The notes under the pieces were generated by a model. It saw nothing but the letters and a program-made list of their open reading frames with translations, did not search any database and was not told the DNA's origin. A stretch of 52,657 bases of DNA from Planctomyces sp. (GTDB lineage Bacteria; Planctomycetota; Planctomycetia; Planctomycetales; Planctomycetaceae), in assembly GCA_005778115.1 (NCBI GenBank), contig SXKJ01000364.1, positions 1 to 52,657 of the forward strand, written 5' to 3'. Position 1 is the stretch's first letter; the number at the start of each line of letters is the position of its first letter. Below, in pieces: positions 973 through 51,626 of this stretch. The position numbers and the translations under genes are program-made.

Positions 973-1911
973 ATGTCTGCAAGCACTTCCCATCGAGGCC
1001 AGCCGCTCTTGGCGTTCTCGACCTTGGGTTGCCCCGATTGGAGTTTTGACGAGATCGTTGCGCGAGGTGTTGAGTACGGCTACGACGGCGTTGAGATTCG
1101 TCTGATCGAACGTGAGACCGACCTGCTGAAGCGACCGGAGTTTCGTGCTCCGGAGTTGGCGTCACGAAAGCGACAGCTTGCCGATGCGGGCTTCCGAGTT
1201 TGCGGCTTGTCCTCGTCAGTTCGCTTTGAAGAGACCGACCGATCTGTTCGAGCGGCACAGCTCGCGGCGGGCCAAGCGTACTGCGATCTCGCTCGCGAAT
1301 TGGGAGCGAGTTTCGTGCGCGTGTTCGGCGACATGATTCGGCCCAACGAAGACGAAGCTCCGCAGTTCGACTGGATCGCCAGCGGCCTGCAATTGCTTGG
1401 CGAATACGCCCGCACGGTCGGCGTGGACATCTTGATTGAGACTCACGGCGACTTCTGTCGCAGCGACAAGATGGTCGCGCTGATGAATCGAGTCACCTGC
1501 CCGTCGGTCGGCGTGCTGTGGGACACTCACCACCCGTGGCGATTTCATGACGAGTCGATCGCCGACACTTGGGCCTCGTTGAAGAAGTTGACTCGGCACA
1601 CCCACTGGAAGGACTCGGTGACTCGTCCGGCAGAACTTCAACAAGCGGTCTCCGCCGAAGTTGCCGCTCAGATCGCAGAGGCGGCGCGAGTGGCGCATGC
1701 GACGAACACGGGGCATCAGCACGCGGACTATGCACTCTTTGGCGGCGGCGAATTCCCGGCTCGCGAGTGCCTGCAACGGCTGCTGGCCGACGGCTACTCC
1801 GGTTGGTACAGCCTGGAGTGGGAGAAGATGTGGCATCCACAGATCGAAGTGCCAGAAATTGCCGTGAGGTTGTTCTCGCAGAAGTTCAAAGAGTTGTGGG
1901 ACTCGCTGTAG
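973..1911 (+). CDS. Sugar phosphate isomerase/epimerase (xylose isomerase-like TIM barrel)
   Basis: MSASTSHRGQPLLAFSTLGCPDWSFDEIVARGVEYGYDGVEIRL...GVLWDTHHPWR...YSLEWEKMWHPQIEVPE. Confidence 0.85.
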   Translation: MSASTSHRGQPLLAFSTLGCPDWSFDEIVARGVEYGYDGVEIRLIERETDLLKRPEFRAPELASRKRQLADAGFRVCGLSSSVRFEETDRSVRAAQLAAGQAYCDLARELGASFVRVFGDMIRPNEDEAPQFDWIASGLQLLGEYARTVGVDILIETHGDFCRSDKMVALMNRVTCPSVGVLWDTHHPWRFHDESIADTWASLKKLTRHTHWKDSVTRPAELQQAVSAEVAAQIAEAARVAHATNTGHQHADYALFGGGEFPARECLQRLLADGYSGWYSLEWEKMWHPQIEVPEIAVRLFSQKFKELWDSL

Positions 1912-1980
1912 GTTGGCCGCCCTCGGACGCCCTGCATGGATTCGTTCTTAAAGACGGCCAGCCGAGGGCGGCCATCCTAC
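1908..1980. repeat. Palindromic element spanning the stop codons of two convergent genes
   Basis: GTAGGTTGGCCGCCCTCGG ... CCGAGGGCGGCCATCCTAC. Confidence 0.9.
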
Positions 1981-3749
1981 GGCTTCACCTGTCCCGTCTT
2001 CGGATCGACCGCGACATTCAGCATCTCGTCATCGACGACATAGAAAACGTAGCCGTTGAACATCTCGTCGTAGGACTGCTGGCCGTAGGGGACCGTTCGC
2101 TTCGGGTCGGGGTTGTACGGGTTGAATGGCGAGTTATCGAAATGCGCGATTGCTTCGACCTTCGTCCCTTTGGGGAGTCGCTTGGTGCCCGGTTCGATTT
2201 CGTAGCCGAGTTGCCAGCCGAAATTGTAGTTCGGGATTTGCAACAGCGTTTCGCGCGGCTGATTGGGTGCGTAGGCGAAGAAGGTCATGTCTTTGCCGCG
2301 CAGGTGCATGTGAGTGAATAAGCCGAGCAATGTTGTGTCGTGCTTGAGCGTGCGGCTGGAGCGCACCTCATAGGCTCCGTGGCCGGGAGGGATTTGAATG
2401 CGGTGCGGGTCGAGCAAGAAATGATGCAGCCGTTTCTCGACGACGCGTTTAGGGAAACGCAGGCCGACGGAGATACGGCACTTCTCTGGTTTGCCGGTTG
2501 TCGTGAAGTGGATTTGCAAACCAAGCCCCGCGAGCTTCGGAACGAAATACGCCACTCCGTTATCGAACCGCCCGAGATCGAGCGGCTGGCCTCCCGGCAC
2601 ATAGCCGGTGATGAACGTCTCGATGCCGGCTCCCTGAGCGGTGACGTAGGCCATGTTGCAGTGATGCACGACGGCCGGGTTGTCGGGCCGGATCTCCACC
2701 GCCTCCAGCCAAGTGTCTGCCAGGAAGATATGCGGCAACAGTAAATGCCGATACGGGACATAACCGGTCGCGGGAATCGATTCCTCCAGCAACATGGAGA
2801 CAACAAGATCTGGTTCGCCGATGCGCCACTTGGAATCGTTGAACTTCGGTGACGGCGGAGCATCTTTCGGATCGCCGACTGCTCGGCCGGTGCGGACCCA
2901 ACGGACCAGCGTGTCGCGCTCCTCGAGAGTCAGCGACGGATCGTTTTGAAACTTGCCGTGCTTGGGATTCGCGAACCACGGCGGCATGCGTTGATCGCTG
3001 ACGACTTCGGCAATCATCTCCGCATTGGCCGCCGCGTCCTTATGATCGAGCAATGAAAACGGAGCGGCTGTGCCGGGGCGATGACAATTCACGCAGCGGC
3101 GATTCAAGATCGGTGCGACCTCTTTGTGAAACGTCGGAGCAGGCCCATTGGCCGCGAGCGGTTCGGGCGACGTTATCAAGCAGCCATCGACGGTCGTCGT
3201 CGACACCGAAACCGCCTGGCCGGCGAGCAACTCTCGCAACGCTTCTTCAAGATCACGTCGCGTCGGCTCCGGCCTCGCGCCGCCGAGCCGCAATTGATCA
3301 TCGACTCGGCCGCGATACACGAGTTTCAAGTTGGTATCCAACACCGCGACTTCCGGAGTCCGTTGAACTCCCAACCGCTTCGCGCAGGAGAGATCGGTGT
3401 CCTTAACGAACGGGAACGAGGCGTCGTACTCGATCGCCTGTGCGGCCATGTCCCGAATCGTGTCATCCGCTCCGACATTGACCGCGACGATCTGCACGTC
3501 TTGTGGTCCGTACTTGTCATCGAGTTCGATCAGTTTCGGAAACGTCCGCTTGACCAACGGACATTGCGTGGTCGTGAAGACGAACACGTAGGCTCGCTTC
3601 TTCCCCAAGTCCGCCAGCGAGCGTTGGAGGCCGCGAATGTCTTTGAAACGGAGTTCGCCGATCACATCGCTAATCGTCGGCGCGCGTTCGTCCGCGATTG
3701 CTGAAGTGAGCGTGCTCATCAGCGTCAACAAGGCCAAGCAAACTCGCAT
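1977..3749 (-). CDS. Secreted redoxin (AhpC/TSA-like) fused to c-type haem motif and Cu-dependent monooxygenase-like domain
   Basis: Signal peptide MRVCLALLTLMSTLTSAIA; thioredoxin-like FVFTTTQCPLVKRTFPKL; haem CVNCH; C-terminal VHHCNM...HMHLRGKDM, like type II Cu monooxygenases. Confidence 0.8.
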   Translation of the reverse strand: MRVCLALLTLMSTLTSAIADERAPTISDVIGELRFKDIRGLQRSLADLGKKRAYVFVFTTTQCPLVKRTFPKLIELDDKYGPQDVQIVAVNVGADDTIRDMAAQAIEYDASFPFVKDTDLSCAKRLGVQRTPEVAVLDTNLKLVYRGRVDDQLRLGGARPEPTRRDLEEALRELLAGQAVSVSTTTVDGCLITSPEPLAANGPAPTFHKEVAPILNRRCVNCHRPGTAAPFSLLDHKDAAANAEMIAEVVSDQRMPPWFANPKHGKFQNDPSLTLEERDTLVRWVRTGRAVGDPKDAPPSPKFNDSKWRIGEPDLVVSMLLEESIPATGYVPYRHLLLPHIFLADTWLEAVEIRPDNPAVVHHCNMAYVTAQGAGIETFITGYVPGGQPLDLGRFDNGVAYFVPKLAGLGLQIHFTTTGKPEKCRISVGLRFPKRVVEKRLHHFLLDPHRIQIPPGHGAYEVRSSRTLKHDTTLLGLFTHMHLRGKDMTFFAYAPNQPRETLLQIPNYNFGWQLGYEIEPGTKRLPKGTKVEAIAHFDNSPFNPYNPDPKRTVPYGQQSYDEMFNGYVFYVVDDEMLNVAVDPKTGQVKP

Positions 3750-3900
3750 GTCGGTTCCCATTTTGAGACGAGTGGAATCGTCGGCGCGACAGGATACCAT
3801 TCTCGGCCGCTACGAACACCAATTTCACATGTCCGGCCGAAAGCCGAGAGCCATCAGCTTTTGGCGAACAGCTTACGGCCAGTCAGAATCAGGAGTCACC

Positions 3901-4767
3901 ATGAAGTCCCTGTTCTTTGCATTCGCGGTCGTTTTGATTGGTAACTTGCTTCTCGCCGCGCCGCCGGTGTCGGACTCGGTCGTGTGGGAGGAAGCGATCG
4001 AATACTCGAACCCCGACGACACGCATTTGCAACTCAATTTGGCTCGGCCGAAGTCGGGCGAGGGTCCGTTTCCGACCGTGCTGTGCATTCACGGCGGCGG
4101 TTTCCGAGCGGGAAAGCGTGAGTCCTACGACGCGCTCTGCGTGAAGCTGGCCGAGCGAGGCTATGTCGCGGCGACGATGACGTATCGGCTGGCTCCGAAG
4201 CACAAGTTCCCAGCGGCGGTCCACGACACGAAGTCCGCTGTCCGTTGGCTGCGAGCGAACGCCGCGAAATACAAAATCAACCCGGACAAGCTCGGCGTGA
4301 CTGGTGGTTCGGCGGGCGGACATCTCGCGCAGTTCTTGGGCGTGACGGCTGGTGTGCCGCAGTTTGAAGGGCAGGGGGGCAACGCCAATCAATCGAGCCG
4401 CGTGACGTGCGTCGTCAACGTCTATGGGCCAAGCGACTTCACGAAGTCGTATGGCAAGAGCGTGGATGCTCACGAGGTTTTGCCGCTGTGGTTCGGCGGT
4501 GACCTGAGTACTCACAAAGCTTTGCACATTCAGGGCAGCCCGCTGTATTGGGTCACGCCCAACGCCGCCCCGACACTCTGTATTCACGGCACCGAGGACA
4601 AGTATGTCGCTCACGAGCAAGCCGAGTGGCTGATCGACAAGCTCCAGGCCGCAACGGTTGAGGCCGAACTACTCACTCTCGAAGGAGCCGGCCACGGCTT
4701 CAAAGGGACCGATGCGGAGAAAGCCGAAGCTGCGCTGTTCGCGTACTTTGACAAGCACTTGAAGTAG
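3901..4767 (+). CDS. Secreted alpha/beta hydrolase (BD-FAE/esterase-lipase family)
   Basis: Signal peptide; CIHGGGFRAGKRE; GGSAGGH nucleophile elbow; GHGFKG. Confidence 0.88.
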   Translation: MKSLFFAFAVVLIGNLLLAAPPVSDSVVWEEAIEYSNPDDTHLQLNLARPKSGEGPFPTVLCIHGGGFRAGKRESYDALCVKLAERGYVAATMTYRLAPKHKFPAAVHDTKSAVRWLRANAAKYKINPDKLGVTGGSAGGHLAQFLGVTAGVPQFEGQGGNANQSSRVTCVVNVYGPSDFTKSYGKSVDAHEVLPLWFGGDLSTHKALHIQGSPLYWVTPNAAPTLCIHGTEDKYVAHEQAEWLIDKLQAATVEAELLTLEGAGHGFKGTDAEKAEAALFAYFDKHLK

Positions 4768-4985
4768 GTCAGGCTTTCCAGCCTGACCCGAACGGCTGTG
4801 ACTTTTGTAGGGTGGGACAAGCTGAGTACTCACAGCGCCGGCCCACCAATTTGTTCCCAAGCGAAAATGGTGGGCCGGCGCGACGAGTACGTCGTTGGTC
4901 CCAACCTACGAATCAAAAACTCACAGCCTCGAACGGTTGAACGTCCCCGAATCCGCTGCGGGTCAGCCTGGAAAGGCTGACCTAC
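4764..4985. repeat. Nested palindromic element filling a convergent intergenic region and spanning both stop codons
   Basis: Outer GTAGGTCAGGCTTTCCAGCCTGACCCG/CGGGTCAGCCTGGAAAGGCTGACCTAC; then CGAACGGCTGTGA/TCACAGCCTCGAACG; inner GTAGGGTGGGACAAG...GCGCCGGCCCACCA/TGGTGGGCCGGCGC...GGTCCCAACCTAC. Confidence 0.9.
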
Positions 4986-16461: not shown

Positions 16462-19400
16462 ATGCCCCCAGCGCCTACTGATCCCCACGAGCTTGTTAGC
16501 GATTGCCGATCGCTTGTGGAATTGCTGCGCCGCCGCGCGGAACGTTTGCCGGATCAACTCGCGTATCAATTCCTGATCGACGGGCAGCGCGCAGGACCGA
16601 GTTTGACCTATGGCGAGTTGCATCGCGCAGGGCAAGCCGTCGCGGTGCGTCTGAGCGAATCCGCCGAGCGTGGTTCACGAGCGTTGTTGCTCTATCCTCA
16701 GGGCATCGAGTTTCTGATCGCCTTCTTTGGCTGCCTGCAAGCCGGTGTGATCCCCGTGCCACTGCCGCCGCCGGATGCGGCGCGGATGATGCGAACGTTA
16801 CCCCGTTTGAAGTCGGTCATCGCTGACTCACAGGCCGCACTGGTCCTGACAACCGGCGAGCTGCACGCGACGTTGCATCAGCACTTTGATGCCGAACTGG
16901 CGAGCCTGCTCTGGTTGGCAACCGATCGCCTCGTCGTGGGTCAGGTTTCCAACCTGCCAGTCCCAAACGGGCTGGTTGAAAAACTGCCCCACGTGGAACC
17001 AACACCTGACGACGTCGCCTTCCTGCAATACACGTCCGGATCAACCTCGACCCCCAAAGGAGTCATGGTCAGCCACGGCAACGTGCTTAATCAATGCCGG
17101 TTACTGGCAACGGCCGCGAGCTATTCCGCTAGCAGCGTCGTCGCCGGTTGGATGCCGTATCACCATGACTACGGCTTGATCGAAGGATTGCTTCTGCCGT
17201 TGTTCGTCGGCGTGCCGTGTTATTTCATGTCCCCGTTGTCGTTCATCAAGCGGCCGATTCGCTGGCTGGAAGCGATCTCGCGGTATCGTGTCACGCACAG
17301 TCAGGCTCCGAATTTCGCCTACGACTTGTGCGTGCAGAAGATCACGCCAGTCCAACGGAAGACACTCGATCTTTCCTGCTGGCAAGTCGCTGCCAACGCC
17401 GCCGAGCCAATTCGTTCTGAGACTCAGCAGGCTTTCTACGACGCCTTCAAAGACTGCGGCCTGCGCGAGTCAGCGCTCGCGCCTGCCTACGGTCTGGCGG
17501 AAGCGACGTTGATGGTCTCACACACACGATTGGAAATCGCAAATCTCAACTCGCAAATCTCAAATCCTGTCTCCTGCGGCCGAGTGCTCGACGAGATGCA
17601 GGTAGAGATCGTGAAGGCGGAGACGTTGCAGCGATGCGTCGCAGGCGAAGTCGGAGAAGTTTGGGTCGCCGGTCCCTGCGTGGCCAAGGGGTATTGGAAT
17701 CGACCGGAGGAAACCAAGCAGACCTTTCAGGTACGCCTGGCAGATTCCAACGACGGGCCGTTTTTGCGAACTGGAGACTTGGGTTGCCTGCGAGACGGCG
17801 AGCTATTCATCGCAGGCCGGCTCAAGGATCTGATCATCATTCGCGGAGACAATCACTATCCACAGGACATCGAGCTGACGGTCGAACGCAGCCATCCGGC
17901 ACTGCGATCCGGCCACGGAGCGGCGTTTTCCGTCGACGTGGACGGTGCCGAAGAATTGGTCGTTGTTCAAGAGGTACAAGGTAAGCAGCTGCGCGAAGCG
18001 AATGTTGAGGAAGTGCTCAGCGCGATCCGCGCCGCCGTCTTCAACGAGCATGACCTGCGATTGCATGAAGTGGTGCTGCTCAAGCCGGGAGGTGCGCTCA
18101 AGACAACCAGCGGCAAGATTCAGCGTCGTGCAATGAAGGCAGCCTTCTTGAACGGCGAACTCGATGAGCTTGGCCGCCAGACTCCCGCCCCCATTCCGGT
18201 GAGTCGCTCGCAGTCCACAATCCGGTCCAGGCTTGCGGCCTCGTTCGGCAACGATGAGGTTGATGCGTCACGCTCGTTTGCGGATCTCGGTCTCGACTCG
18301 GTGAAAGCGGTCGAACTGGCGCTCGACTTGGAAACCTGGCTCGGCCGCCCTGTTCCCGCAACGGTGTTTTGGACGTATCCGAACATCAAAGCGTTGACCG
18401 AGCATCTGATCGACGTCCAGGCGAGCGGGGCGGCGTCAGCCCCCCGGTCTTCTTTGACATCGCGAAGTCACCGGGAGGCTGACGCCGCCCTGCTCGCCAA
18501 TGAATCGCGGGATCAGAGCGCCGTGCCACACTCGGACGACATCGCCATCATCGGCATGGGCTGTCGATTCCCCGGTGCCAATTCACCTGAGGCGTTCTGG
18601 CAATTGCTCGAACAAGGCGGCAACGCGATCGGTGAGATTCCCCGTGAGCGTTGGAACGTCGAGGACTACTTCGACCGCAACGCCGACGCGCCCGGCAAGA
18701 TGTATGTGCGGCATGGAGGCTTCATCGAATCGGTCGATGAATTCGACGCCGGTTTCTTTGGGATCACTCCGCGAGAAGCCGAAGAACTCGATCCGCAACA
18801 GCGGCTATTGTTGGAGGTCGTCTGGGAGTCGCTCGAACAGGCCGGAGTCGCGCCGACCAGTTTGCGAGGCAGCGAAGCTGGCGTCTTCATTGGCATGAGT
18901 TCCGACGATCACGCGACTTGGTCACACAACGGCAATGGGTTGGCCGAGCTAAATGCTTACCGAACACTCGGAACCGCGCGGAGCATTGCGGCCGGGCGGA
19001 TCGCCTATGTGCTCGGTCTGCATGGGCCGGTTCTACAGATCGACACGGCTTGCTCGTCGTCGCTGGTGGCGGTCTATCAGGCGTGTCAGTCGCTGCAATC
19101 GGGCGAGTGCCATTTGGCGATGGCGGGTGGCGTGAATTTGATGTTGTCCCCCGCGACAACGATCGCGCTGTGCCGGTTACACGCACTCGCTCCCGACGGC
19201 CGCTGCAAGACGTTCGACGCGGCCGCCGATGGATACGTCCGCGGCGAGGGCTGCGGCATCGTTGTGCTCAAGCGAATGGCCGATGCTCGGCGCGACGGTG
19301 ATCCGATCCTGGCGTGCATTCGCGGGGCGGCGATCAATCATGACGGCGCGAGCAACGGACTGACCGCTCCGAACGGACAAGCTCAGGAGTGGCTGATCCG

Positions 19401-22400
19401 CAAAGCGTTGCACAAAGCAAAGCTCGATGGCCGAGCGATCGACTACGTGGAAGCGCACGGAACCGGCACAGAGTTGGGTGATCCGATCGAATTGACGGCG
19501 CTGCATCGCGCCTACGGTGACGGGCGAACGGCGGGGAACCGGCTGTATGTCGGCTCGGTGAAAACCAACATCGGTCACTTGGAAGCGGCGGCTGGGATTG
19601 CCGGGTTGATTAAAGTGGTGCTGATGTTGCGGCATGGCCACATCGCGCGGAGTTTGAATTTCGACAAGCCGAATTCGCACTTCGCTTGGAACAATCTACC
19701 GTTAGCCGTGCCGACGACGACGATGCCGTGGCCGGATTCCAGTAGGACGGGCACTCTTGCCCGTCCTGATCCGGGCGACGGGCAAGAGTGCCCGTCCTAC
19801 GGTTCACAGCCGAGGCTCGCGGCCGTGAGCGCCTTTGGCTTCAGTGGCACGAACGCGCATTTGATCGTGCAAGCAGCCGATGTGTTGCAGTGTGGCACGA
19901 CGCTCCGCGTCGTGAATCACGACGCGGAGCGTCGTGCCACACTGCTCTTCACGCTCTCCGCCGCATCCGACGAATCTCTGAAAACGCTCGCCAAAAAATA
20001 CGACGACTTCATCGCCGCTCACCCGGAACTGTCGCTCGCAGATCTCTGTTTTTCCGCAGCGACGACGCGCGGTCATTTCAAACGGCGAATTGCGGTCGTT
20101 GCCGCGTCGTGTGATGAACTGCGAACGAAGCTGCGAGCGTTCCACACCGGCAGCGATCCGACAGAGGTCATCGGCGGAATCAGCACCAGGCATGAAACCG
20201 CTGACCGATCGAATCTGGCATTCCTCTTCACCGGCCAAGGTTCACAGTACGCCGGCATGGGGCGTGAGCTGTACTCCACTCAGCCGGTTTTTCGTGCGGC
20301 GATCGACCGCTGCGCGGAGATTCTGCGTGACCGTTTAGAGCGGCCGCTGACAGAGCTGCTGTTTGGCGAAACAACGACCGCTGCCCAGATGCTCGATCAA
20401 ACGATCTACACGCAGCCCGCGCTGTTTGCGTTGCAGTTTGCACTCGTTGAATTGTGGAAGTCGTGGGGCATTGAACCATCCGCCGTGCTCGGCCACAGCG
20501 TTGGCGAATATGCGGCGGCCTGTGCGGCCGGAGTGTTCCGCTTGGAGGCCGGCCTGGAGTTGGTGATGACTCGCGGCCAGTTGATTCAAGCGTTGCCGCA
20601 GACCGGCGAGATGGCGGTCGTGATGGCGACCGAATCACAAGTAGCCGCAGCGATTCAGCCGTTCGAGGGAAAGATCTCGATCGCCGCCATCAACGGTCCG
20701 GACACGATCGTGATCTCTGGCGAGCGAGAAGCTGTCCGGCAGGTGACGGCGAAACTACGCGCGAATGGCGTCGATGCCGAGCCGCTCAACACATCGAACG
20801 CGGGGCACTCGGCCTTGATGGACCCGATCCTGCCGGCATTCCGCGAGGCTGCCGCACGACTGGACTTTGCGCCGCCCAAGGTGACAATCATCTCGAACGT
20901 CACCGGGCGACTCGCGGAAGCCGAGATGAGCTGCGGCGAGTATTGGGTCCGTCACGTCCGATCGCCGGTGCAGTTCGCGGACGGCATCAACGCACTGGCC
21001 GCCACCGGCTGCCACACGTTTCTGGAGATCGGTCCCAATCCGAACTTGTTGGCGATGGGGATGGGCTGCGTGAAAGATCGTCGCAACCGGTGGCTGCCGT
21101 CGTTGTCGAAAGGACGGGGCGACAGCGACACGATGCTGCACAGTCTTGGCGAGTTGTATGTGCGCGGCGCGGAGATCGACTGGCGTGGCTTTCACGCGCC
21201 GTTCGCCCGCACTCGCGTCGAACTGCCGACGTACACGTTCCAACGACAACGATTTCCGCGAGCGGTTCAGGCGAGCGGGGCGGCGTCAGCCCCCCGGTCA
21301 TTCGTCGTTGCACCAACCACCGGGGGGCTGACGCCCAATTGCACACACTTTGTGAGCGGCACGGCGCTAGCCGCCGGTAATTCATCGGAAATCGTCGATC
21401 GCAGATTACCGGTGGCTAGCGCCATACCGCTCAAGTCAGCCACCGGGGGGCTGACGCCGCCCCGCTCGCCAAGTCTTCCAGATCCGGATCAGATTGCCGC
21501 ACGCGTAGAGCATTTGCGCGTTGGCCTGGAGGACGAGTCGCGTGACATGACGCGGCAACTCGACGGCGTCGCGATTCGGTTTGTGATTGCCGCGTTCAAG
21601 CAATTGGGCTTTGACTGGAAAGTCGGCTTGGAGATTTCGCCAGCAGAGATCGATGCGCGAATTCCGAAGAAGAATCGTCCCAAAGTGGCTCGTGTGATGG
21701 GGCGGTTGGTTGAGCGTGGTTGGCTGGATGTGACGCCAGCCGTTGGGCGTGTTGAGAACGTGCCCCACGGCTGGCGCGTGGCGCTTCCCGAACCAAATGG
21801 TTTGGCGAGCGACTTGCTCGACGAGATCGAACGCGGACATCGCTATCCCGAATGCGACTTGGTACGTCGCGCGGGGCAAGCACTGGCGGCGATCTGGTGT
21901 GGCGACGTTGATCCGCTGACGTTTCTGTTCCCAGATGGCTCGACCGAGAAGGCGGCGCAGTTCTACAGCGAGGCTCGAATGTTGGCCGGGTACAACCGGC
22001 TGGCTGGTGAAGTCGTGCGCGAGATGATCGCGGCGCTTCCGGCAGATCGGGCGATCCGCGTGTTGGAAGTTGGCGCGGGGACCGGTGGCCTGACGATGCA
22101 CTTGCTGTCGCGGCTTCCGGCCGAGCGTTCTGAGTACGTCTTCACCGATTTGTCTCCACTGTTTCTACGCGCGGCCGAAGAGCGGTTTCGCGACTTTCCG
22201 TTTCTGAGCACTCGTTTGTTCGATGTCAGCGGATCGCTCAGCGAGCAAGATGTCGATGCGGGGTCGTTCGATCTGATCGTCGCGGCCAACGTGCTGCATG
22301 CGACGCCGCGGTTACGCGAAACGCTGTCCAACGTTCGCCAGCTTCTGCAGCCAGGGGGATGGTTGCTGCTGCTGGAAGGAGCGAACCCGCCGCTGTGGGG

Positions 22401-23790
22401 GGACATGGTCTTCACGTTGATCGACGGTTGGTGGAGTTTCGAGGACACCGATCTGCGGCCCGACTATCCGCTGATGCGCCGCGATCGCTGGTGTCAGGTG
22501 CTCGGGGAAACGGGATTTGAGAAGGTAGCGTGTCTGAATGACGCGACGCATCGGGATGACTCGAATCACACGTTGTATCTGGCGCAGTCTGGCGCGACGG
22601 AATCGACAAAACGTGCTGGCACAGTCGCCGTACCGCGACCGTTAGGGAGCGGCCCCGATCGCCAAACGGATCAGCCGCTCCCTAACGGTCGCGGTACGGC
22701 TTCTTTGCCAAGAATGGTTGCGACTCCCGACCACTTGCCAGTGGCGCAGCCGGAGTTGATCGAACTGGTGCGCAGTCACGCCGCGCGGGTCATGCGGATG
22801 CCGGTGGAGTCGATTGACCCGAAGCAGCCGCTGTCGGAGTTGGGGTTGGACTCGCTGATGGCGATCGAACTGCGGACTCAGCTAGGCCATCACCTCGGCA
22901 TGGAGCTGTCGCTGAACCCGCTGCGGATGCGGCGGTCGGTCGAGGAGATTGTTGCCTATCTCTACTCGGACAAAGAGCCGCCGCACGGATTCCAGGAAGT
23001 TCCCGGCAGCAAGCTGCACAACTTGGAGCTCGATGTGCCGCGCGTGCATCTCGTGCCGTTGCAGCAAGGAGGCGATCAGACGCCGCTGTTCTTTGTGCCC
23101 GCCGGTTACGGTGACCTGCTGGCGTTTCAAGATATCGCGAACGCGCTCGGCGCGGATCAGCCGGTTTACGGCTTGCAGCCGGCCAGTGCGAAGCAGGTGA
23201 AGACGATTCGTCAGATGTCGATCTATCGGCTGGTCTCGGCCTACATCGCCGAGATCAAGAAAGTGCAGCCGACGGGGCCGTATTTTCTCAGCGGCTATTC
23301 CGCCGGCGGGATCATCGTGGTGGAACTGGCTCGCGAACTGTTGCGGCAGGGGGACGAAATCGGACTGCTGGTGATCTTCGATCCCCCGTCGCACGTCCCG
23401 TTCTGGCTCGATTGGTTCTACGCGATCAACTATCGCGTCTGCCTGCACACGCACTTGATCGGACTGATTCGCAACGTGCGTTCGCGGCTGATTCGCCGGA
23501 TGTTTCACACGGTGCTGGACGAAGGACTGCGCACGCACACGACCGTGACTCGCGAGCATCTCGTCGCGCCGTATCCGGGCCGCATCACGCACTTTCGCGC
23601 GCGTTTGTCGCAGAGCAGTCTGGTCAGCCTGTGTCCGGTTGGTTGGTTTTGGCGAAAGACAGCGCGCGACGGCGTCGAGGTGCATTGGATTCCCGGCACG
23701 CACTACGGCATGTTGCGCGGCCCCGGCGCGGGAGTCGTGGTCGATGAATTGGCCGACTGTCTGAAACGGGCGAAGATGGCGAAGGATTGA
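16462..23790 (+). CDS. Modular type I polyketide synthase: FAAL-ACP-KS-AT-methyltransferase-ACP-thioesterase
   Basis: FAAL FLQYTSGSTSTPKGVMVSHGNVLNQC; ACP1 LGLDSVKAVEL; KS DTACSSSLVA, EAHGTGTELGDP, NIGHLEAAAG; AT FTGQGSQYAGMG and GHSVGEY; MT VLEVGAGTGGLT; ACP2 LGLDSLMAIEL; TE GYSAGGIIVVEL. No KR/DH/ER motifs seen. Confidence 0.95.
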   Translation: MPPAPTDPHELVSDCRSLVELLRRRAERLPDQLAYQFLIDGQRAGPSLTYGELHRAGQAVAVRLSESAERGSRALLLYPQGIEFLIAFFGCLQAGVIPVPLPPPDAARMMRTLPRLKSVIADSQAALVLTTGELHATLHQHFDAELASLLWLATDRLVVGQVSNLPVPNGLVEKLPHVEPTPDDVAFLQYTSGSTSTPKGVMVSHGNVLNQCRLLATAASYSASSVVAGWMPYHHDYGLIEGLLLPLFVGVPCYFMSPLSFIKRPIRWLEAISRYRVTHSQAPNFAYDLCVQKITPVQRKTLDLSCWQVAANAAEPIRSETQQAFYDAFKDCGLRESALAPAYGLAEATLMVSHTRLEIANLNSQISNPVSCGRVLDEMQVEIVKAETLQRCVAGEVGEVWVAGPCVAKGYWNRPEETKQTFQVRLADSNDGPFLRTGDLGCLRDGELFIAGRLKDLIIIRGDNHYPQDIELTVERSHPALRSGHGAAFSVDVDGAEELVVVQEVQGKQLREANVEEVLSAIRAAVFNEHDLRLHEVVLLKPGGALKTTSGKIQRRAMKAAFLNGELDELGRQTPAPIPVSRSQSTIRSRLAASFGNDEVDASRSFADLGLDSVKAVELALDLETWLGRPVPATVFWTYPNIKALTEHLIDVQASGAASAPRSSLTSRSHREADAALLANESRDQSAVPHSDDIAIIGMGCRFPGANSPEAFWQLLEQGGNAIGEIPRERWNVEDYFDRNADAPGKMYVRHGGFIESVDEFDAGFFGITPREAEELDPQQRLLLEVVWESLEQAGVAPTSLRGSEAGVFIGMSSDDHATWSHNGNGLAELNAYRTLGTARSIAAGRIAYVLGLHGPVLQIDTACSSSLVAVYQACQSLQSGECHLAMAGGVNLMLSPATTIALCRLHALAPDGRCKTFDAAADGYVRGEGCGIVVLKRMADARRDGDPILACIRGAAINHDGASNGLTAPNGQAQEWLIRKALHKAKLDGRAIDYVEAHGTGTELGDPIELTALHRAYGDGRTAGNRLYVGSVKTNIGHLEAAAGIAGLIKVVLMLRHGHIARSLNFDKPNSHFAWNNLPLAVPTTTMPWPDSSRTGTLARPDPGDGQECPSYGSQPRLAAVSAFGFSGTNAHLIVQAADVLQCGTTLRVVNHDAERRATLLFTLSAASDESLKTLAKKYDDFIAAHPELSLADLCFSAATTRGHFKRRIAVVAASCDELRTKLRAFHTGSDPTEVIGGISTRHETADRSNLAFLFTGQGSQYAGMGRELYSTQPVFRAAIDRCAEILRDRLERPLTELLFGETTTAAQMLDQTIYTQPALFALQFALVELWKSWGIEPSAVLGHSVGEYAAACAAGVFRLEAGLELVMTRGQLIQALPQTGEMAVVMATESQVAAAIQPFEGKISIAAINGPDTIVISGEREAVRQVTAKLRANGVDAEPLNTSNAGHSALMDPILPAFREAAARLDFAPPKVTIISNVTGRLAEAEMSCGEYWVRHVRSPVQFADGINALAATGCHTFLEIGPNPNLLAMGMGCVKDRRNRWLPSLSKGRGDSDTMLHSLGELYVRGAEIDWRGFHAPFARTRVELPTYTFQRQRFPRAVQASGAASAPRSFVVAPTTGGLTPNCTHFVSGTALAAGNSSEIVDRRLPVASAIPLKSATGGLTPPRSPSLPDPDQIAARVEHLRVGLEDESRDMTRQLDGVAIRFVIAAFKQLGFDWKVGLEISPAEIDARIPKKNRPKVARVMGRLVERGWLDVTPAVGRVENVPHGWRVALPEPNGLASDLLDEIERGHRYPECDLVRRAGQALAAIWCGDVDPLTFLFPDGSTEKAAQFYSEARMLAGYNRLAGEVVREMIAALPADRAIRVLEVGAGTGGLTMHLLSRLPAERSEYVFTDLSPLFLRAAEERFRDFPFLSTRLFDVSGSLSEQDVDAGSFDLIVAANVLHATPRLRETLSNVRQLLQPGGWLLLLEGANPPLWGDMVFTLIDGWWSFEDTDLRPDYPLMRRDRWCQVLGETGFEKVACLNDATHRDDSNHTLYLAQSGATESTKRAGTVAVPRPLGSGPDRQTDQPLPNGRGTASLPRMVATPDHLPVAQPELIELVRSHAARVMRMPVESIDPKQPLSELGLDSLMAIELRTQLGHHLGMELSLNPLRMRRSVEEIVAYLYSDKEPPHGFQEVPGSKLHNLELDVPRVHLVPLQQGGDQTPLFFVPAGYGDLLAFQDIANALGADQPVYGLQPASAKQVKTIRQMSIYRLVSAYIAEIKKVQPTGPYFLSGYSAGGIIVVELARELLRQGDEIGLLVIFDPPSHVPFWLDWFYAINYRVCLHTHLIGLIRNVRSRLIRRMFHTVLDEGLRTHTTVTREHLVAPYPGRITHFRARLSQSSLVSLCPVGWFWRKTARDGVEVHWIPGTHYGMLRGPGAGVVVDELADCLKRAKMAKD
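16935..16993. repeat. Imperfect palindromic element in frame in the FAAL domain (VGQVSNLPVPNGLVEKLPH)
   Basis: CGTGGGTCAGGTTTCCAACCTGCC...GGGCTGGTTGAAAAACTGCCCCACG; related to elements at 4764 and 4955. Confidence 0.65.
17528..17568. repeat. Short A/T-rich repeat in frame in FAAL (LEIANLNSQISNP)
   Basis: attggaaatcgcaaatctcaactcgcaaatctcaaatcct, internally repeated caaatctcaa units. Confidence 0.5.
18418..18498. repeat. Palindromic element in frame at the ACP1-KS linker (QASGAASAPR...)
   Basis: GCGAGCGGGGCGGCGTCAGCCCCCCGGT ... ACCGGGAGGCTGACGCCGCCCTGCTCGCC. Confidence 0.9.
19742..19800. repeat. Palindromic element in frame near the KS C-terminus (RTGTLARPDPGDGQECPSY)
   Basis: GTAGGACGGGCACTCTTGCCCGTC ... 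GACGGGCAAGAGTGCCCGTCCTAC; same family as 31931. Confidence 0.92.
19890..19942. repeat. Palindromic element in frame at the KS-AT linker (CGTTLRVVNHDAERRATL)
   Basis: GTGTGGCACGACGCTCCGCGTCGTGAATCACGACGCGGAGCGTCGTGCCACAC. Confidence 0.92.
21271..21470. repeat. Nested palindromic element in frame at the AT-MT linker; inner palindrome about 21353-21432
   Basis: Outer GCGAGCGGGGCGGCGTCAGCCCCCCGGT/ACCGGGGGGCTGACGCCGCCCCGCTCGCC; inner GAGCGGCACGGCGCTAGCCGCCGGTAAT/ATTACCGGTGGCTAGCGCCATACCGCTC. Confidence 0.9.
22628..22700. repeat. Palindromic element in frame at the MT-ACP2 linker
   Basis: GCCGTACCGCGACCGTTAGGGAGCGGCC ... CCGCTCCCTAACGGTCGCGGTACGGC. Confidence 0.92.
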
Positions 23791-24361: not shown

Positions 24362-24388
24362 GTGCGGTTCTTTTATAAAAGTGTTTTG

Positions 24389-24460
24389 GCGAGCGGGGCG
24401 GCATCAGCCCCCCCCCGGGTTGGCGGAATACACCGGGGGGCTGACGCCGCCCCGCTCGCC
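24389..24460. repeat. Palindromic element between lipocalin-like and ACP genes
   Basis: GCGAGCGGGGCGGCATCAGCC ... GGCTGACGCCGCCCCGCTCGCC; same family as 18418 and 21271. Confidence 0.92.
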
Positions 24461-24495
24461 TGGAATTCGATTGGTACGGCCGGTGGCCGACCTAG

Positions 24496-30557: not shown

Positions 30558-31934
30558 ATGCTTTTTGAGAAAATCTTCGCGAGAACCGTCGCACCGTTTG
30601 CCGGTCTGCCCGGACCAAAGCCCCTCTTTCCGATTGGCAATCTGCTGGACTTTCTTGGCAAGTCCACCCGGCCGTGGGAGGTCATGGCCAGTTACGGCGA
30701 GCGTTTTGGCAGCATGAGCGTCATGTGGATGCTCAACCAGCCGGCGATTGTGCTGAATGATGCGCGGCTGATTACCGAGGTGCTCTGCACTCGGACGAAG
30801 GATTTCTACAAGGACGAGCCGTGCGGGGCGCTCATCCCAGTGCTGACTCGGTCCAGCCCAAACATCAACAACGGTGCCGAGTGGACGCGAACCCGAACGC
30901 AGAGTCCGCTGACTCAGCCTTGGATCGGCGAATGGCGGCGAGCTCAGATGCCGGCGCTGAGAAGCGTCTTGCGACGCTGGGGCGAGCGGATGGCGTCTGT
31001 TACGGATCGTGAGGCCGTGCCGCTTCAAAACGAATTGCAGCGGATCACGTTCGACTGCTTTTCTGTCGCGACCATGGGCAGTGAACTCTCCGATGCCGCC
31101 TATGCCGACTTCATGTCGCTGGCGTCACAGGGAAGCAAACGCATGTTGACGCCTCGTCGGCCGAGTCCCGATCTCAATTCGCGTGGCCAGGAGACTCGCA
31201 AGCGATTCCTGAGAGTTTTGCGAGACCGCTATGACGCGGCAGTGGCGAGTCCGAGGCCCGCCTCGTTCGATCTGCTGTCGATGGCAATGCGTCAGAACAC
31301 GCTATTGCCGCCGGATGAGTTATCGGCAGAGATGGGCAACGTGTTTTACGGCGGCTGCTTCTCCGTCCCCAGCACGATTGTCTCTACGCTGTATCTGCTG
31401 ACTCAGCATCCCAACGAATCACAGAAACTGAAAGCGGCCGTTCTTCAGCTGGATGACGACTGCGATCTGGAAGCATTGAATGACTGCAAGCCGCTGGATT
31501 ATGCGTTGCGAGAAGCCATGCGATTGCTACCGGCGGTGCCGATGTTCGGCCGGCGCGTGCTGCCAACCGCGGCGACGGAAGTCGGAGGATGTTTGTTGCC
31601 GCCGAATACCAGCATCTGGTTGGTGAATTGGCTGCTGCAACGATCGGGTCCGCATTGGGACCGTCCGCTGGACTTCTTGCCCGATCGTTGGGGAGGGGGC
31701 GTTGCGGAAGCGAACCCGTTGGGGAGCGAATACTTTTTCCCCGAAGGCCGCGGCCCTCGCATCTGTCTGGGAGCTGAGTACTCGATCTTTTACATGAAGC
31801 TGGTGCTGGCCACGTTGCTTCGCCGCTGGGACGTTGAGTGCGGCCAAGGGCAGCCGTATGACGCGGACCAGAAATTCTTCTTCGGCGTGCGCATGCCAAT
31901 GGGCCTACGAGCGCGGCTTCGCCGCCGGGCGTAG
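30558..31934 (+). CDS. Cytochrome P450
   Basis: LPGPKPLFPIGNLLDFLG; ExxR as EAMR; Cys-ligand loop FFPEGRGPRICLGAEYSIFYMKLVLATLL. Confidence 0.9.
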   Translation: MLFEKIFARTVAPFAGLPGPKPLFPIGNLLDFLGKSTRPWEVMASYGERFGSMSVMWMLNQPAIVLNDARLITEVLCTRTKDFYKDEPCGALIPVLTRSSPNINNGAEWTRTRTQSPLTQPWIGEWRRAQMPALRSVLRRWGERMASVTDREAVPLQNELQRITFDCFSVATMGSELSDAAYADFMSLASQGSKRMLTPRRPSPDLNSRGQETRKRFLRVLRDRYDAAVASPRPASFDLLSMAMRQNTLLPPDELSAEMGNVFYGGCFSVPSTIVSTLYLLTQHPNESQKLKAAVLQLDDDCDLEALNDCKPLDYALREAMRLLPAVPMFGRRVLPTAATEVGGCLLPPNTSIWLVNWLLQRSGPHWDRPLDFLPDRWGGGVAEANPLGSEYFFPEGRGPRICLGAEYSIFYMKLVLATLLRRWDVECGQGQPYDADQKFFFGVRMPMGLRARLRRRA

Positions 31935-31994
31935 GACGGGCACTCCTGCCCGTCGGCTTTTCGTCTATCAGACGGGCAAGAGTGCCCGTCCTAC
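31931..31994. repeat. Palindromic element overlapping the P450 stop codon
   Basis: GTAGGACGGGCACTCCTGCCCGTC ... GACGGGCAAGAGTGCCCGTCCTAC. Confidence 0.92.
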
Positions 31995-50067: not shown

Positions 50068-50075
50068 GACATTCA

Positions 50076-50290
50076 GGCGAGCGGGGCGGCGTCAGCCCTC
50101 TGGTTCTGCGGTAGAGGCACCGGGGGGCTGACGCCGTTAAGGATTTCTGTAGCCGAATTCGTCAGAATTCGGAGTCTTCGAGCGACTCAGCCGAAGTCTG
50201 ACGACTTCGGCTACGCCTAAATCGCCATGTTTCACAGTATCCAAAATCCTTAACGGCGTTGCACAGGGGGGCTGACGCCGCCCCGCTCGA
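50076..50290. repeat. Triple-nested palindromic element between the membrane protein gene and bioA
   Basis: Outer GCGAGCGGGGCGGCGTCAGCC/GGCTGACGCCGCCCCGCTCG; middle GCCGTTAAGGATTT/AAATCCTTAACGGC; inner GTAGCCGAATTCGTCAGAATTCGG/CCGAAGTCTGACGACTTCGGCTAC. Confidence 0.9.
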
Positions 50291-51626
50291 CTGTCTGTTT
50301 CGCACACACTTCCTGAATCGACGCGTACAACTGGTCGCACACTCGACTGACCAATTCAGGAGGCATCGCGGGCGCGGGCACGATCGTGAGCACTTCTCCG
50401 AGCGACCGCGTGAACAACCCGCGCCGCCGCGCGGCCAGCGTGACTTGATGCCCGATCCGTTGTTGCGGAGCAAATGGTTGGCAAGTCGCTTTGTCCGCGA
50501 GCAATTCGATGCCGACCAGGATCCCCTTCTGCCGGATCTCGCCGACGTGTGGCCAATCGCGAATCTCGTCCAGTCTTTGAGTCAGCAGCCGCGAACATTC
50601 CGCGACGTTGTCCAACACGCGGTTTTCGTCGAACAACTTCAGTGACGCGAGTGCCGCCGCACAGCCCAGCGGATTGCCGGTGTAGGTGTGGCCGTGAAAG
50701 AAGGTCCGCCCGGAACCCGGCTCACCGAGGAAGGCGTCATAGACTTCGTCGGTCGTCAGTGTCGCGGCGAGCGGCAGATAGCCTCCGGTGATCCCTTTCG
50801 AGAGGCAGAGAAAATCGGGAACGACCTCTTCTTGCTCGCAAGCGAAGAGCGTCCCCGTGCGACCGAAGCCGACCGCCACTTCATCAGCGATCAGCAAGAT
50901 GCCGTGCTGCCGCGTGAGTTCACGCACACGCCGCAGATAACCAGGCGGATGCACCAAGATGCCGGCGGCCGCTTGCACGAGCGGTTCGATCACAAACGCG
51001 GCGATCCGGCCGGCGTTCTCGCTGAGTGTCCGTTCGAGTTCATGGAGCGACTCGGCCACAGGCGGACCGCCTGTGGCTACGGTAGGGCAGGGGACTCGCA
51101 GAGTCGGGAACAGCAACCGTTCGTAGCTGCGATGAAAGGCGTCGATGTTGCCAAGACTCACGGTCCCAACCGTGTCGCCGTGGTAGGCGCTCGCGATGCC
51201 GACAAACAGATCGCGTGGCTCCGGTGTCGGCTTCTGGCGATGAAACTGATACGCCAGCTTGAGTGCGACCTCGACCGCCGTCGCGCCGTCATCGGAATAG
51301 AAGACTTTCGTCAGACCATGCGGCGCACGACGGACCAACTCGGCGGCGAGCTCAATCGACGGCACATTCGACAGTCCCAGCAGCGTGCTGTGAGCGACTT
51401 GATCGAGCTGTTCGCGAATCGCACGGTCGATCTCCGGCACGCGGTGTCCATGCACGTTGCACCACAGCGACGAGACGCCATCGAGATAACGGCGTCCCTC
51501 GGTGTCGATCAATTCAAAGCCTTCCGCAGAGGCAATGATTGGGGCGTCATCTGCGACAAACTCACGCATCTGACAGAACGGGTGCCAGACGTGAGCACGA
51601 TCAGTTTCGCGGAGTGAAGAGGCCAT
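50250..51626 (-). CDS. bioA: Adenosylmethionine-8-amino-7-oxononanoate aminotransferase
   Basis: [91 protein letters not shown] at 51626 just upstream of the conserved start region. Confidence 0.93.
51055..51078. repeat. Short palindrome in frame in bioA (VATGGPPVA)
   Basis: GCCACAGGCGGACCGCCTGTGGC; core shared with the 33693 element. Confidence 0.7.

Follow-up and report, generated by a model that had tools for sequence, protein, structure and literature searches.

The window, the whole stretch of 52,657 nucleotides that was analysed, is one contig (C343) of a genome of 7.43 Mb in 515 contigs. This genome is a single MAG with an estimated contamination of 4%, and the relatives used for comparison are planctomycete MAGs as well. 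Near the left end of the window, two convergent genes meet at a palindrome that holds the stop codons of both. The features of this locus are as follows, with the basis for each in brackets.

973..1911, plus strand: xylose-isomerase-like TIM barrel protein of 312 aa (PF01261, E 1.3e-32; 312-aa alignments in same-genus relatives), with a likely start at ATG 973
1909..1911, plus strand: TAG stop of the isomerase-like gene, within the left GTAG (sequence and ORF table; same stop codon position in the relatives G002, G010, G005 and G011)
1908..1980, no strand: REP doublet (BIME/REPIN-like inverted pair), GTAGG...CCTAC (inverted repeat, fold, doublets of this general form against a shuffled copy, related copies elsewhere in the genome)
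1908..1939, end approximate, plus strand: left REP unit, GTAGGTTGGCCGCCCTCGGACGCC... (sequence against family members)
1953..1980, minus strand: right REP unit, GTAGGATGGCCGCCCTCGGCTGGCCGTC in the minus-strand reading (sequence against family members)
1977..1979, minus strand: TAG stop (CTA on the plus strand) of the redoxin-domain gene, within the right GTAG (sequence and ORF table; same position in G002, as TAA, and G010, as TAG)
1977..3800, minus strand: redoxin-domain protein, longest ORF 607 aa (PF08534, E 3.2e-16), the true start probably lying further in

The first-pass annotation had read the element as starting with GTAGG and ending with CCTAC, with the TAG and CTA inside these ends terminating the two convergent neighbours, and both the sequence and the ORF table confirm this. 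The GTAGG at 1908-1912 and the CCTAC at 1976-1980 are the two ends of a single inverted repeat, which spans 1905-1926 and 1962-1983 with 91% complementarity and a loop of 35 nt. On each side, the element overlaps the gene by four bases: the stop codon and the base before it (G1908 and C1980, respectively), which is the third position of the last sense codon. As RNA, the palindrome folds at -51.8 kcal/mol (z = -6.8), and none of 200 shuffles folded as well.

The typical unit of the REP family to which this element belongs is GTAGGATGGCCGCCCTCGGCCGTCC, and family members carry a palindromic stem directly after GTAG. In the copy at 1908-1980, GTAG is present at both outward ends, and the two inverted units with their short spacer form one hairpin. 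Its inner stems show partial decay, in contrast to the well-kept outer inverted repeat; the left unit has lost part of its inner hairpin relative to the family, and the right unit carries a small insertion. Judged by sequence, this is a non-autonomous element of the GTAG superfamily, in which two GTAG-tagged REPs are paired in inverted orientation (BIME/REPIN).

The survey of REPs covered 26% of the genome (1.93 Mb), on which a home-made caller with a phase-specific Markov model placed 1588 genes. This sample contains 78 GTAGG...CCTAC doublets, all families pooled, whereas its Markov-shuffled copy contains none, so the palindrome at 1908-1980 is not there by chance. Together with the 227 REP units that were found, the doublets represent many dispersed and mostly extragenic copies. 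The genome also has 16 matches above the curated cut-off to Y1_Tnp, the RAYT-type transposase domain. One of these loci (L017) is bordered by inverted GTAGCCCCAGGCTT(T/C)AGCCTGGGG repeats in the classical RAYT/REP layout; the GTAG REPs that flank it belong to a family other than that of 1908-1980. Among the ten RAYT loci read, none is flanked by the GTAGGATGGCCG family, to which the REPs of 1908-1980 belong.

The element shares features with several known systems. Like other REPs of the GTAG superfamily (Di Nocera et al. 2013, PMC3733652), the REPs found here have GTAG at one end of each unit, a palindromic stem (partly decayed in the copy at 1908-1980), dimers in opposite orientation and a location mostly between convergent or tandem genes, but their families are, as far as tested, limited to this planctomycete genus. 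With REPINs (Bertels and Rainey 2011, PMC3116915) and BIMEs it has in common two inverted REPs with a spacer, a predicted single long hairpin, dispersed multicopy occurrence and RAYT genes in the same genome; a difference is that the inner hairpins of the doublet at 1908-1980 are partly decayed. The Y1_Tnp matches, one of them between inverted GTAG REPs, recall the RAYT/TnpAREP loci (Nunvar 2010, PMC2817692; Corneloup 2021, PMC8266576), from which the present case differs in that none of the ten RAYT loci read has GTAGGATGGCCG at its flanks.

To place the REPs relative to genes, it was measured for each of the 227 units how far its TAG lies from the stop codon of the gene that runs toward it. 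The distance is zero, that is, the TAG of the REP is the stop codon, for 43 units, where placing units at random in non-genic sequence would give about 0.6, and from -60 to +90 no other distance occurs more than 5 times. Just 2 genes extend into an element and end 1-90 nt within it, and 43 of the 45 near-end cases are in the stop frame, for which one third would be expected (p ~1e-18). The enrichment of GTAG element ends at stop codons, which the first-pass annotation had named as the decisive test of its proposals, is real and large in this sample. Of the 19 palindromes that separate convergent genes, 8 provide the stops of both neighbours and another 5 the stop of one. Hairpins of other GTAG families add to this: one follows directly after 20 of the 117 remaining GTAG stops, compared to 19 of 854 TAA or TGA stops. 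Strictly defined REP units account for 43 of about 350 TAG stops, or one in eight, and with the other hairpins added about one in five TAG stops is found at the base of a REP-like hairpin. Because of this share, REPs shape the stop codon usage and some of the protein C-termini of this genome.

The window holds further examples of REPs at gene ends. At 4764-4985, a second convergent pair has its stops (4765-4767, plus strand, and 4982-4984, minus strand) supplied by REPs of the GTAGGTCAGSCT family, and a REP doublet of the GTAGGGTGGGAC family is nested between them at 4807-4909. At 31931-31994, a doublet of the GTAGGACGGGCA family gives the stop of the plus-strand gene ending at 31934, and the facing gene ends 8 nt away from the element.

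It had been suggested that the elements target TAG stops. The enrichment itself stands, but a comparison with matched GTAGs indicates that recognition of the stop codon as such is not required. At up to 60 nt from a gene end, 43 of 85 REPs (51%) and 149 of 298 other GTAG tetranucleotides (50%) are located at the stop (Fisher p = 1). Since REPs and other near-end GTAGs coincide with the stop about equally often, the enrichment is what would be expected if REPs stand where GTAGs stand; GTAG use and the loss of in-gene insertions suffice, and the idea that TAG is targeted as a codon was set aside. Some further bias of REPs toward gene ends remains when all positions outside genes are counted (43 of 144 REPs at stops compared to 149 of 877 other GTAGs, p = 0.0005). 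In addition, a C precedes the GTAG more commonly at REP units than at bare GTAG stops (58% versus 31%, p = 0.002).

The same comparison was made in a 400-kb sample of E. coli MG1655, in which GTAG stops are rarer. Near gene ends, a stop codon coincides with 2 of 9 REPs and with 8 of 50 other GTAGs (small numbers, with one caller artefact removed by annotation), and on these small numbers the share of REPs at stops again tracks the share of GTAG stops. The two REP cases are mutT and rcsC, both in agreement with RefSeq; another candidate, L296:16948, was rejected, as the annotated rcsB stop lies elsewhere. In E. coli HS, mutT keeps the same GTAG stop with one REP-pair unit fewer than in MG1655. 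In NRG 857C, the GTAG has become GTAT, and the annotated gene is 9 nt longer and ends at a TAA inside the REP. Because this mutT runs on to the TAA in the REP, stops of this kind are really read from the element. Both NRG 857C and JMK_KBN3987 (L301 and L304) have a mutT annotated 9 nt longer than that of K-12, with the GTAG stop of the REP changed and the next stop within the REP used.

Orthologous gene ends give a view of how such sites arise. Twenty stop sites were read in the two closest relatives, which yields 31 comparisons that are not all independent, as some concern both ends of one element or two relatives sharing a state. The same REP is present in 8 of the 31, one of the eight being decayed. 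In 17 of the other 23, the relative nevertheless stops at the identical codon, with a bare GTAG in 3 cases, a REP of another family in 5, and TGA or TAA without a REP in 9. In all, 7 of the 23 comparisons show a different REP family at the stop, against 4.6% expected genome-wide (p = 5e-5, or 0.002 after collapse to independent sites). Because the stop so often stays at the same codon without the same REP, and because other families recur there, the elements are, for the most part, seated on native stops.

The stop of the isomerase-like gene (1909-1911) is the clearest case of different REP families at one stop: G002 and G010 have GTAGACGAGTCACTCCGTGACTCG... at this position, G005 has GTAGCCACGTTCGCCAGAACGTGG at the same stop, and in G011 the codon is TGA without a REP. 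Elsewhere, the element-bearing genome has AAG TAG, then the element, then AAACATG, and the corresponding empty site (L208) has AAG TAA CCAAAGCATG instead. In a reciprocal case (e280), the genome studied here has AAG TAG without a REP, while its relative has AAG TAG followed by one (L200). A general search for empty sites by joined flanks gave few clean cases. At two loci of the relative G002 (L203 and L207), a different short repeat (acacggatgacacggar..cgcggat) comes directly after TGA where the genome studied here has a REP.

A minority of sites probably has a different history. Six of the 23 differ in length by 1-3 codons, compared to none of 22 neighbouring gene ends without elements, a small control set in which all are exact matches (p = 0.02), and because of this difference truncation, extension or spacer loss probably created some sites. 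Selection for elements that restore a stop, which had been proposed as the alternative to targeting, fits this minority only; for most sites the 17 orthologues that end at the same codon speak against it.

Two explanations based on selection or deletion were weighed against these data. In the first, REPs land at random near gene ends, and those with an in-frame TAG survive by restoring a stop while those out of frame are lost. The in-frame bias of 43 to 2, the altered protein ends at 6 of 23 orthologous sites and the finding that most REP-free orthologous stops are TGA or TAA are all in keeping with it. However, random landing predicts protein ends that vary by differing numbers of codons, but 17 of 23 do not differ. 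Moreover, at about 0.8 units per upstream position, reaching 43 would take some 54 positions at which an in-frame truncation is tolerated. We judge this explanation unlikely. In the second, elements land downstream of the native stop, after which deletions take out the intervening spacer together with that stop, and the fusions that survive are those that join the gene in frame to GTAG. Deletion pressure on spacers is plausible in a compact genome, and two sites (q11 and q16) are longer by 2-3 codons than in the relatives; yet for the length to stay unchanged, as it does in 17 of 23 cases, the deletion must end within one codon of the old stop. We consider such a ratchet improbable.

A bidirectional terminator role had also been suggested for the palindrome, which would then be a transcription terminator or insulator that selection has retained where convergent genes meet. 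Its hairpin is very stable, it lies between convergent genes, and the same gap is filled by other palindromes in relatives. REP doublets, however, are located between tandem genes (29 of the 78) and inside called genes (24) as well as between convergent genes (19). An intrinsic (Rho-independent) terminator has a GC-rich hairpin followed by a T-tract, and a search of 1700-2200 on both strands found no terminator-like site with a T-run. The terminator role is left without sequence support, and we consider this explanation very improbable.

The explanation that we prefer, with confidence evenly divided for and against it, combines GTAG-linked insertion or exchange with the purging of harmful insertions. 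The REP doublet would presumably be mobilised in trans by one of the RAYT (Y1_Tnp) transposases of the cell. With GTAG at the 5′ foot of each REP hairpin, the inverted pair reads GTAG...CTAC and presents one TAG to each flank. Insertion, or the swap of one element for another, may take place next to a GTAG. Where a gene already terminates in GTAG, the site would be harmless because the stop is retained, while insertions within genes or out of frame would be purged. The outcome would be elements that seem to supply stop codons, with neither stop recognition nor a terminator role needed.

A stronger form of this explanation is that GTAG, besides being the recognition tag of REPs, is also the site of integration or exchange: RAYTs would place or swap REPs at a pre-existing (C)GTAG, and gene-terminal GTAG stops would serve as reusable safe harbours for successive, unrelated REP families. 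This we propose tentatively, leaning somewhat against it. The bare GTAG stops at three orthologous sites were counted in favour of the preferred explanation, but these could also be scars of lost elements, because excision products in P. fluorescens retain about 6 bp of the right end (PMC3116915). GTAG-linked insertion would by analogy parallel the sequence-directed insertion of IS200/IS605 elements in single-strand transposition, to whose enzymes the RAYTs are related, with GTAG in the place of the guide sequence. RAYT cleavage in vitro occurs at CT or CA, GTAG being guide-like (PMC8266576). This cleavage, the TGA or TAA rather than GTAG at 13 of the 16 orthologous stops without a REP, the changed lengths at 6 of 23 sites and the lack of a cognate RAYT among the loci read all speak against insertion at GTAG. 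The weight of the TGA and TAA stops is lessened by the frequent change between TAG and TAA stops that is seen at element-free gene ends too. A one-sided target does not explain the exact fit at both ends of the doublet.

That GTAG superfamily termini often provide the TAG stop of flanking ORFs was already published in 2013 (Di Nocera et al. 2013, PMC3733652). That study is without the frame test, matched-GTAG control and orthologue comparison of the present analysis. The frame and matched-GTAG controls, and the turnover of families at one stop, appear to be new; neither control, nor a single stop reoccupied by different families, was found in the literature searched. If stops are recurrent docking sites, the presence or absence of REPs at orthologous stops would be a codon-exact natural record of insertion in any REP-rich genus.

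Further repeats were noted in the window. A 59-nt REP doublet at 19742-19800 lies within an ORF of 2442 aa (16462-23790), which stays open through it. Finally, a multicopy repeat without GTAG, (A)GGCGAGCGGGGCGGCGTCAGCCCCCCGGTG, is present at 18415-18500, 21265-21472, 24383-24462 and 50071-50293, in both orientations and often as inverted pairs.
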